Positions 1 to 3,275 of a DNA stretch of 64,000 bases are shown piece after piece (position 1 is the first letter of the stretch; every line of letters begins with the position of its first letter). The DNA is from Litoreibacter janthinus (GTDB taxonomy: Bacteria; Pseudomonadota; Alphaproteobacteria; Rhodobacterales; Rhodobacteraceae). The DNA is taken from positions 2,735,751 through 2,799,750 of the forward strand of contig NZ_FOYO01000001.1 of the NCBI RefSeq assembly GCF_900111945.1, in the 5' to 3' direction. Below the pieces are notes generated by a model. The model searched no databases and was not told the origin of the DNA. It saw only the letters and a program-made list of their open reading frames with translations. Position numbers and translations under genes: made by a program.

Positions 1-1674
1 GCCGCCCGGCCAAGGTCGTGCGAACGCTGCCACATATGGGGCATGCGCAACCTCGTCCCCTTTAAGAAGCGGCAGGTCCATGAACTGAGCCACCACCGGA
101 ACAGGCACCGCAAAGGGGCGCACCTCGCCGACTGTCTCGACTGCTTCGCTTGGTGTGTAAATGTGGCGCTCCACCCGCACTGCCTCAATCCGGCGCGCAC
201 CGCGATCCTCTATCCGGTCAACACGGTACAATGTCGTGTCACCCCGCGCATCCGTGAGCTCTGCCAGGTCGCCTGCCCTCAGATCGCTGCGAGAGGGTGG
301 CAAAGAAAAGCTGACCGCATCCCGTGAAACCCGGGCTTCCGACAACCAACGCTCGGCAATTGTGGTCGCCTCCGCTTCGGTTAGCGCCAGCGGTAATTCG
401 TTCTGGGTTACGTCAGATGTGCCATCATGGGGGAACCGAGCGTCTGCAATACGCGCGACAAACTCACCTTCGGCCTCGACATAGCCAAGACGCACTTCTC
501 CCACGACCTCTGCCATTGGCGCGCGAACCTTCTCAAGCGTGGCGTCCCCGGAATTGACCACCAACTCCGCATCGCTCACGCCATGTTCGCTCGCATCCTT
601 TCGGGTTTGAAACACAATCTTGCCGCCGCGTTCGATCGCATCGAAACCCAGCGCGATCATCAACGGCTGCAATGCCGCGCGGGGTGTATCGAAATCGGCG
701 ACGCTAAAACCGCGCACGATGCCATGAAGGTTGGTCGCGTCATAATCTATGAAGCTGACACTTTCACAGATTTCACCAACGACATGCGCCAACGGCATCA
801 CAGAGGTCCGACCGGTCAGCCAATGCCCCGTCACGTGATTTTGCCCGTCACTCCAAATCGAAAGATCGCTTGGAAAATTCGGCCAAGGTCGCGCATCCCA
901 CGCCCAAACGAAAGCCCGCGACATGTCCACCATCGGGCCGTCGTAAAGAGAGCTCTCGGGATTGTTCTCGGATTCACCAAAAAAGCCGTAATAGGCGCGC
1001 AAGTACTGCATTTGAACATAGTCATCCCGCTTGCCGCTTGAGAAATGCGGGATCGCGCTTTCGCTAGATTTCGGATCTAGAAACTTGTTCGGCTCGTTCG
1101 GAGCTTTGTTGATTGCGGCGCAGCCAATCTCATCCACCCAAGCCGCGTCAAACTGCGGGCCGCGCATATGCTCAGGCGAGGACGCGCTATGCGCCTCCGC
1201 GACAGCTCCGTTCGGCCACACAAGGCGACGCCGTGTCGCTTGCCATTCAGGGCGCCGATCAGGGGGCGAGCATGCCAGTATCCCGCTGTCGCCAAAAATC
1301 ATCACGTCCCTTACTTGGTCAAACGTCTCGCCCACCAACGCCACGCGCCGCGCACGGCCCGCGTCACCGGGCATGTTGCCTTCGACCATCATCCGCACCC
1401 ATTCGGCGCCGGCACGTGTCTTACCCGCGCCGCGCCCGCCCATAATCACCCAAGATCGCCAATCGACTTGCGGTGGCAGCTGATGCGGATGGGCCCAAAA
1501 GTCGAACAGGAACGGCAGAGCCGACATTTCCTGCTCGCTCAACCCGTCAAGAAAGGCGTCCTGCACCGCTCGCGGCGCGGATGCTATCAAGGCGGCGCCT
1601 GATCTCAATTCGGGCTGCTCCAAGGTCGAGGGCGTATTCTCCAGCTCGACCGGCACGCTTTCTGCGGTGTTCAT
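1..1674 (-). CDS. GTA terminase (orfg2)-orfg15 chimeric frame, partial
   Basis: An open frame of 558 codons that runs off the left edge. It starts at 1674, inside the 3' end of orfg1. Residues 1 to about 178 are the front of the gene transfer agent large terminase: GGRGAGKTRAGAEWVR is the Walker A region and FDAAWVDE looks like Walker B. Right after AWVDE (about 1123-1140) the protein becomes the C-terminal part of GTA orfg15: EIGCAAINKAPNEPNKF, DPKSSES and RDDYVQMQYLRA are typical of the GTA_TIM domain, followed by a Phage-tail_3-like stretch (LHGIVRGFSVADF). The rest of the ATPase, the nuclease domain and every gene between orfg2 and orfg15 (portal, protease, capsid, tail) are absent. I traced the frame to base 1 without a stop. 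It is either a deletion scar in the genome or a mis-assembly at a short shared sequence. It cannot be a working terminase. Confidence 0.85.
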   Translation of the reverse strand, partial: MNTAESVPVELENTPSTLEQPELRSGAALIASAPRAVQDAFLDGLSEQEMSALPFLFDFWAHPHQLPPQVDWRSWVIMGGRGAGKTRAGAEWVRMMVEGNMPGDAGRARRVALVGETFDQVRDVMIFGDSGILACSPPDRRPEWQATRRRLVWPNGAVAEAHSASSPEHMRGPQFDAAWVDEIGCAAINKAPNEPNKFLDPKSSESAIPHFSSGKRDDYVQMQYLRAYYGFFGESENNPESSLYDGPMVDMSRAFVWAWDARPWPNFPSDLSIWSDGQNHVTGHWLTGRTSVMPLAHVVGEICESVSFIDYDATNLHGIVRGFSVADFDTPRAALQPLMIALGFDAIERGGKIVFQTRKDASEHGVSDAELVVNSGDATLEKVRAPMAEVVGEVRLGYVEAEGEFVARIADARFPHDGTSDVTQNELPLALTEAEATTIAERWLSEARVSRDAVSFSLPPSRSDLRAGDLAELTDARGDTTLYRVDRIEDRGARRIEAVRVERHIYTPSEAVETVGEVRPFAVPVPVVAQFMDLPLLKGDEVAHAPYVAAFARPWPGG

Positions 1675-1903
1675 CCAGTTTTCCTTCTGCGTCTCTACTC
1701 GTGTTCAACAGATGCTGAAGATCCGTCTTCAGCTTTGCTTTCAGGGTTGAAGGAACCGATTGGTCTGTACGCACACGCCGCCATTCCCGTCTGACTTCCA
1801 TCGTCAGGTCATGGGCCATGATCGTTAGGTCCTCCAAAATCTCGTCTACAGTCTTCGTCACCAATGTGTCCGGCGAGCCGGGTGAATCAGGGGTCTCTGT
1901 CAT
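1547..1903 (-). CDS. GTA small terminase-like protein (orfg1)
   Basis: 118 residues, mostly charged and helical, with the core LTMEVRREWRRVRTD and RAGEYALDLGAARIEI that I recognise from the first gene of Rhodobacterales gene transfer agents. That protein acts as small terminase, recognising DNA for packaging. The start at 1903 has a strong AGGAGG site. The 3' end overlaps the downstream terminase start by 128 bases. The gene looks intact, but its partner terminase is truncated and fused to orfg15, so packaging from this locus should be dead. Family call by memory of the sequence, not by a search. Confidence 0.85.
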   Translation of the reverse strand: MTETPDSPGSPDTLVTKTVDEILEDLTIMAHDLTMEVRREWRRVRTDQSVPSTLKAKLKTDLQHLLNTSRDAEGKLDEHRRKRAGRAGEYALDLGAARIEIRRRLDSIRAASGAGRLS

Positions 1904-2117: not shown

Positions 2118-3275
2118 CTAGTTATTGGCGTTGCGTTCTGCTTCGATCTTGCGCCACTTCGCCACGTTTTCGTTGTGCTCTTGGATCGTCACAGCAAACG
2201 CATGGCCGCCGGTGCCATCCGCCACAAAGAAGATGAACGGGGTTTCGTCTGGGTTCAGCGCCGCCTCGATCGACAACCGGCCAGGGTTGGCAATCGGCGT
2301 CGGTGGCAAGGCCGGGATCACGTAGGTGTTGAAGGGCGTCTCGCGGCGCAACTCCGACTGCCGCAGGCCGCGTCCAAGAACGCCTTCCCCCCGGGTAATC
2401 CCGTAGATCACAGCAGGGTCGGTTTGCAGCTTGATTCCTTGGCGTAAACGGTTGGTGAACACGCTGGCAACCTGACGCCGCTCCTCGGCAATGCCGGTCT
2501 CTTTCTCGATGATTGAGGCAAGCACCAGCGCCTCCTCAGGGGATTTCAGCGGAACATCAGGGTCTCTGTTTTCCCAAGCCTCAGCCAAAATCCGTTCCTG
2601 AGCCGCCGTCATCCGCGCAATCAACTCTTCGCGCTGCGCTCCGGGCACCACTTCATAGCTGTCGGGGGCAAGGCTCCCCTCTGCGGGCGTTGCGTCGATC
2701 TCGCCTTCCAGCACGTCCAGCGCACGCAGGCTGTCGACAATCTGCCAGCTGGTCGCGCCCTCAGCCACGGTAACGCGGTATCGGACATCACGGTCGTCGC
2801 GCGCTTCAAGATACTCCGCCGGAACTTCATCCACACCGGGGGTGTAGTTCGCGGTTTCCACATATGCGTTCGTTGAAGGGTCCAACTCACGCACCACCGC
2901 GCGGCGCGAGGTCACGCCAATGCGGTAAACCACTTCCGTGCCACAGGTGTTCTGACCGCCGCGGGTCACGATATCAACGATCTCTTCCATCGATGCGCCG
3001 GCTGGCACCAGAAAGCTGCCCGCTTTGAGTTTCTGCGACTTGTCCGCATAGTCCGCGCCAATGCGGAAGATGCGCCCGTTGGACACCGCGCCTTTCGCCT
3101 CAAGCTCGCGCGACACCAGCGCCATCGAACCGCCCAAAGGAACCCGAACGCAAATCGCGTCGTCCAAAGGGCCTGTTTTGCTGTATTGCGACTGCCCCCA
3201 GCCCACCAATGCGCCGGCAGCAATCAGCAGCAAGATAAACAGAGTCAGAAAGTTCGAGGCGATAGATTTCCACAT
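2118..3275 (-). CDS. mltG: Endolytic murein transglycosylase MltG
   Basis: 385 residues, the usual length for MltG/YceG. One N-terminal membrane segment (about residues 7-27) anchors the enzyme in the inner membrane with the catalytic part in the periplasm. The signature ASIIEKETG, around residue 260, carries the catalytic glutamate and is followed by the conserved VFTNRL and LQTDPAVIYG. MltG cuts nascent glycan strands and so sets where chains end during peptidoglycan synthesis. Only 7 bases separate it from the fabF stop, so the two are cotranscribed, a common arrangement in alphaproteobacteria. Confidence 0.95.
   Translation of the reverse strand: MWKSIASNFLTLFILLLIAAGALVGWGQSQYSKTGPLDDAICVRVPLGGSMALVSRELEAKGAVSNGRIFRIGADYADKSQKLKAGSFLVPAGASMEEIVDIVTRGGQNTCGTEVVYRIGVTSRRAVVRELDPSTNAYVETANYTPGVDEVPAEYLEARDDRDVRYRVTVAEGATSWQIVDSLRALDVLEGEIDATPAEGSLAPDSYEVVPGAQREELIARMTAAQERILAEAWENRDPDVPLKSPEEALVLASIIEKETGIAEERRQVASVFTNRLRQGIKLQTDPAVIYGITRGEGVLGRGLRQSELRRETPFNTYVIPALPPTPIANPGRLSIEAALNPDETPFIFFVADGTGGHAFAVTIQEHNENVAKWRKIEAERNANN

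Follow-up and report, generated by a model that had tools for sequence, protein, structure and literature searches.

How gene transfer agents (GTAs) persist although the cells that produce them lyse is a long-standing question, and a locus of Litoreibacter janthinus offers a natural case of GTA loss. We analysed a window of 64,000 nucleotides (the whole stretch of DNA whose first lines stand above), at the left end of which a minus-strand frame starts as the GTA large terminase (TerL, g2) and continues as the baseplate megatron (g15). Is this frame real, and how did it come about? A preliminary description, made from the letters alone, had read it as an open frame of 558 codons passing from terminase into g15, and this was borne out: Pfam recognises Terminase_6N, GTA_TIM and Phage-tail_3 in it, and the gene extends past the window edge to a stop, giving a product of 834 aa (Table 1). 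Here the GTA head-tail cluster has collapsed in frame, with one end of the gap inside g2 and the other inside g15; the chimera is real. Because g15 runs on beyond the window, its end was out of sight of the preliminary description.

Table 1. Features of the chimeric locus, in positions of the window
Feature	Position	Strand	Remark
Chimeric gene, codons 1-558 of 834	1..1674	-	remaining 831 bases, up to the stop, left of the window
TerL (g2) part, residues 1-182	1129..1674	-	Terminase_6N 77-183; aligns to the separate terminase of relatives
Walker A GGRGAGKT, residues 79-86	1417..1440	-	in 121/121 fusion proteins (best-matching list)
Walker B end W-V-D-E, residues 179-182	1129..1140	-	
Joint D181-E182-I183-G184	1123..1134	-	D from terminase, G from g15, E codon common to both
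Megatron (g15) part as far as the window edge, residues 183-558	1..1128	-	
Gene at g1 (TerS) position, 118 aa	1547..1903	-	overlaps the chimera start; 78% identity to the g1-position frame of G004
mltG-like gene, conserved upstream neighbour of the locus	2118..3275	-	relative upstream in 26/27 chimera loci

In relatives the two halves fall on separate genes, the terminase on query residues 1-184 and g15 on about 173-834. Pfam placed Terminase_6N at residues 77-183 (profile positions 2-105 of 215), GTA_TIM at 173-268 (profile positions 204-299 of 299), Phage-tail_3 at 330-490 and Rcc01698_C at 581-680. TerL is thus incomplete in the fused gene, its match ending at residue 184, and the g15 half is the last ~650 residues of the megatron (fused-protein residues 172-832 align to 643-1302 of the PDB 6tba chain, E 6e-226). 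The switch lies between D181 and G184, inside the stretch 1123-1140 that had been named for it. The span 1..1903 that had been named holds, besides the fused frame, a gene at the g1 position, for which a Pfam search gave no match.

In intact sister species terminase and g15 stand far apart. In the intact relative G004 the two sites are separated by 11,337 bp, with a row of same-strand open frames between them, and in 12 of the 21 genomes of the genus both genes lie on one contig with the sites 11.3-11.4 kb apart. The order in the L. janthinus genome (G000) is mltG - g1 - chimera - DUF2793 - cysE, with mltG upstream of the locus, and G004 has the same neighbours; pdh genes are also near. Among 27 chimera loci, cysE was found downstream in 26 and a DUF2793 relative in 11 (one query). 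The missing GTA genes were searched for through the capsid: a GTA capsid orthologue is absent from 27/27 chimera genomes, this one included. No match at all was found in 22, and in 5 there were matches only at ≤36% identity, as expected of prophages. The same joint in 27/27 separately assembled loci, one of them this 3.57-Mb contig and several others on multi-megabase contigs, rules against the assembly artefact that had been offered as an alternative; since those genomes also lack the capsid orthologue, we regard an artefact in the L. janthinus genome as practically negligible.

The chimera resembles known systems in its parts and differs from them in their combination. Like the RcGTA-type head-tail cluster (g1-g15) of Rhodobacterales, it occupies the same chromosomal place, its halves are the g2 and g15 of that cluster, and the g1-position gene is retained; unlike it, the locus has no capsid gene, no terminase nuclease half and no N-terminal half of the megatron, so that particles are impossible. 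In TerL the motifs run in the order Walker A, Walker B and motif III. The chimera shares with phage and GTA large terminases (Terminase_6N) the N-lobe with Walker A and Walker B, but stops at Walker B, without motif III or a nuclease domain (PMC6854486, where the TerL Walker motifs are also described). By the megatron limits given in PMC7296036 (peripheral domain 230-744, central 745-984, fibre-binding 985-1304), the joint falls inside the peripheral domain, so the central and fibre-binding domains are whole, compared with megatron g15 (Rcc01698; PDB 6tba, 6teh) and the roseophage megatron (PDB 8gtc), and the terminase N-lobe replaces the iris, the adhesin-like domain and most of the peripheral domain. 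Ordinary decay of GTA and prophage clusters likewise removes structural genes through large deletions, but with varied end points (G415, G418, G443, G446, G461), whereas the chimera has one codon-exact in-frame joint across genera and is mostly open. The fusion is not mentioned in the accessible parts of the open-access literature (PMC7947584, PMC11409702, PMC6854486, PMC11841831 and PMC7296036 among it); preprints and most subscription papers lie outside this literature, so the fusion may have been published there.

The fusion is not peculiar to L. janthinus. Of 394 Rhodobacteraceae genomes, drawn at about one per genus, at least 17 carry it: 14 chimeras among the matches listed, one of them (G332) with a single TAA, and three added on re-search (G357; G159, cut by the contig end; G075, split by a frameshift). 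In this search 366/394 genomes matched at E 1e-30 or better and two candidates were scored per genome; the re-search covered the 28 one-match genomes with no listed chimera, 4 others and 80 of the weaker two-match genomes, and the other two-match genomes were classed from a strong g15 match alone. Within the genus itself 3 of 21 genomes carry the fusion (G000, G006, G017); beyond these and the intact loci, G002 and G010 show different losses, the assemblies of G009, G011 and G012 are fragmented, and G008 (79% complete) gave no match. A Ruegeria-type genus has it in 10/54 genomes, one with a TGA (G451); fusion proteins carrying the name Ruegeria are matched by four contigs of this genus. The union of the sets is 28 chimera genomes. 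A protein search at E 1e-40 gave 2,087 matches, of which the top 120, with the window fragment P0001, form a set of 121; two of the set are the window's own, and as it is ranked by likeness to this junction, near misses may be under-reported. A search of 385 genomes across the class, at a threshold of E 1e-120, gave 16 matches. The 12 of these from other families begin at query 172 only, so none of them is a chimera, and more distant chimeras would have missed that threshold. The chimera pattern had 0 matches in viral contigs. Chimeras are scattered over the family, some of them with nearly identical intact loci as close relatives. The preliminary description had spoken of a fossil scar, which is too weak a term for a joint that recurs across the family with 25/28 frames open.

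We examined the joint itself, which is identical in 27/27 loci (18 + 9): the terminase ends in D-E, g15 starts with x-G-C, and no codon is gained or lost. The catalytic motifs are conserved after fusion, with W-x-D-E-x-G, like GGRGAGKT, in 121/121 best-matching proteins. The residue after E varies as it does in g15, with Y, L, I, M and F among its forms. In 50/52 chimeras with a relative at ≥70% identity it is that of the nearest intact g15, which places the crossover in or beside the shared GAR codon; below 70% identity it agrees in 31/95, some genes being counted twice under two ids. The cluster did collapse in frame at the likeness between the terminase Walker B and the g15 W-x-T-E, as had been described. 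Recombination at this short likeness had also been given as the cause, and here the claim does not carry: all 66 loci in which both genes are present ≥8 kb from each other offer an exact DNA match of 3-8 bp at the joint (≥6 bp in 9), whereas the same gene pairs hold 168-1,323 exact matches of ≥7 bp, the longest 10-17 bp. Because the two genes share hundreds of such matches, the short likeness is insufficient as a cause, and we rejected microhomology. A DNA recognition site was rejected too, codon entropy at the sites being ordinary (ranks 218 of 465, 429 of 1,093, 136 of 316 and 428 of 620), and codon choice showed no synonymous-site or DNA-level conservation at either site. A reciprocal joint was sought in viral contigs and gave 2 pattern matches, both unrelated.

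A foreign chimera imported with its flanks was considered and dropped, there being no signal in identity near the joint. Chimera-chimera minus chimera-intact identity ranged from -0.030 to +0.012 over stretches of 15-45 nt and from -0.019 to +0.011 over those of 60 nt and longer, with no chimera-specific excess within 15, 60 or 126 nt of the joint, a comparison whose power is limited by the large synonymous distance of most pairs. In close pairs divergence did not rise toward the joint.

On a family-wide protein tree of the g15 half (FastTree, several long branches; 136 chimeras in 419 rows) the label requires 52 changes, 41 of these forced by supported branches; such counts are blind to gain versus loss, and a lost cluster can return by transfer only. 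On the same tree, for which sampling favoured chimeras, the chimera label was clustered beyond any of 500 shuffles, and the nearest relative was a chimera for 90/135 and an intact locus for 45/135. Chimera-only clades were set aside as proof of age, being a matter of ascertainment: the protein list holds chimeras by design, and intact Sulfitobacter and Thioclava g15 were found among the supposed chimera-only clades. For the Ruegeria-type genus, a tree built from g15-half nucleotides, with four outgroup rows of which two are chimeras, required 9 changes, 8 forced, and a single clade for the 10 chimeras was rejected (AU p 1.4e-6). The rpoB tree (50/54 genomes) likewise had 9 changes, 6 forced, and rejected one clade; the short terminase-half tree had 10 changes, only 2 forced. 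Some chimeras have close intact partners: the g15 half of P0038 is 100% identical over 650 aa to that of the intact P0125, and P0023/P0226 and P0072 (named Ruegeria atlantica)/G422 share 98.5% and 97.4%.

Are the fused genes kept? Frames are open in 25/28 chimera genomes, G159 being counted open as far as its contig goes; the exceptions are G332 (TAA), G451 (TGA) and G075 (frameshift). In the Ruegeria-type genus dN/dS was 0.02-0.18 for pairs and branches with chimeras, vs 0.04-0.12 for intact pairs, and it was 0.05-0.20 over 14 chimera/intact pairs from several genera. Over these 14 pairs, which are not all independent and do not include G332 and G075 (stop, frameshift), 1 nonsense change was seen, against about 698 expected on the assumption that constraint was absent for half of the synonymous distance. 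The ratio of terminase to g15 divergence was 0.35-0.61 in six chimera sets and 0.42-0.65 in three intact sets, so the terminase half is as constrained in chimeras as in intact loci. Open frames and low dN/dS would fit purifying selection or deletions too recent for decay to have begun, which neither stop counts nor dN/dS can tell apart.

Other GTA-related genes are kept as well. The g1-position frame was open in 13/13 chimeras inspected, with its end shorter or altered in 4. The L. janthinus genome holds a GafA-type gene (DUF6456 match, 477-aa frame); we take DUF6456 to mark the GafA-type GTA activator. Frames of at least 364 aa with this domain were present in 24/26 chimera genomes searched, and the gene looked broken or short in G464 and G332 (a short frame in the latter). 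This retention fits youth of the deletions, upkeep by recombination, or another role. Broken or short-looking DUF6456 genes were also seen in G417, G421 and G461, which have other losses, and in G416 and G462, which have both GTA genes; they occur mostly, not solely, where the GTA cluster is damaged.

The reading we favour, at a probability of about 0.45, is that in-frame deletion has occurred repeatedly and that selection on the fused protein has filtered the outcomes. Deletions that rid the cell of a costly, lytic particle would be frequent and have many end points; the form kept would be the one in which the megatron's central and fibre-binding end follows in register on a TerL N-lobe that has both Walker motifs, its product being tolerated or useful. 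The exact joint would then be chosen by selection on the protein and not by DNA homology, the collapse would arise anew repeatedly, and the cell would be left without its GTA capsid, keeping the g1-position gene, the fused protein and usually the GafA-type gene. For this speak the one joint in 27/27 loci and 121/121 best-matching proteins, the rejected single clade, the 52 changes with 41 forced and the close intact partners; the local residue after E, the lack of chimera likeness at the joint and the lack of DNA-level conservation; and the open frames, the constraint on the terminase half and other in-frame terminase fusions found once each. Against a repeated origin, an invariant joint is hard to obtain from independent events without homology, even under selection, and one origin is simpler; the nearest relatives of 90/135 chimeras are chimeras and the label is clustered, in a sample that favoured chimeras. 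Against selection, open frames, low dN/dS and whole GafA-type genes (24/26) also fit very recent deletions with a functionless product. The main rival is a single old deletion allele, whose joint formed once, spread by homologous recombination and was re-flanked locally up to the gap. It would explain why the joint is codon-identical everywhere with no homology to account for repeats, why g15 halves are near-identical between chimeras and intact loci, why GafA-type genes are mostly retained and why the label clusters on the family-wide tree. Strains with and without the cluster would coexist within species, and transfer might even be by GTA particles, as the 2.5-kb fused gene would fit the 4-kb GTA DNA load. 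Yet chimeras show no excess likeness to each other at any of the three distances from the joint (15, 60 and 126 nt), the residue there is local in 50/52 close cases, one clade is rejected by both the Ruegeria-type g15 and rpoB trees, and the allele would need upkeep across genera; we consider it less likely than repeated deletion. Scattered tree changes, near-identical intact partners and the absence of a chimera-specific excess beside the joint are why a repeated origin is preferred.

A mutational hotspot, in which an enzyme or DNA process joins both sites at a high rate and chimeras are young, short-lived and functionless, appears improbable to us. It agrees with this joint recurring in 10/54 Ruegeria-type genomes where the other degraded forms are each different, and with mostly open frames and mostly whole regulators, as expected of young events, but the exact match of 3-8 bp is not the best available, neither site has synonymous-site conservation, and no reciprocal product turned up in viral contigs apart from the two unrelated matches. 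Returning to repeated deletion under selection, what the protein might do is a bolder matter. The R. capsulatus TerS binds its TerL at the ATPase domain, L27-V258 (PMC6854486), a span longer than the terminase part of the fusion, and the fused protein may possibly be bound by TerS. We hold it doubtful, if conceivable, that a hybrid packaging ATPase/baseplate protein has arisen in dozens of lineages, through one and the same codon-exact deletion, on account of what its product does. One example would be a decoy which, together with the retained TerS, poisons related phages or foreign GTA particles, the cell no longer bearing the cost of its own; Walker-B and TIM-barrel strands would then be spliced in register into a natural hybrid alpha/beta fold. 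If the joint was re-made independently, this is a codon-exact convergent gene fusion without guiding homology; a single allele would be a deletion polymorphism that predates genera. In both cases, fusion proteins that carry the name 'baseplate megatron' or 'phage tail protein' in many roseobacters mark GTA loss and not GTA presence, and a loss allele of one form, scattered and sometimes near-identical to intact neighbours, makes selection between producers and non-producers testable in natural strains.

Other ways of losing the cluster were also seen. In G417 (L206) terminase residues about 1-93 are joined in frame to g14, and in G440 (L248) residues 1-127 are joined in frame to the g15 tail, each seen once; in G443 the terminase join is out of frame. 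Single open frames of 977 and 1,083 aa (G065:C1:1933150-1935978 and G229:C1:1215727-1218870) combine a terminase part with a g15 C-terminal part at joints that differ from that of the chimera. Each of these other forms was seen once; in-frame ones may be in excess, though on a small count. Just after the joint, at residues 189-191 (window 1102-1110), the L. janthinus protein has INKAPNEPN in place of the IDKG of most relatives; N or A by itself occurs elsewhere, and relaxed constraint in this copy is a possible explanation. Extra g15 relatives at ~36-39% identity stand beside the GTA copy in G402, G310, G043, G121, G150, G322 and G434, and are probably prophage megatrons.
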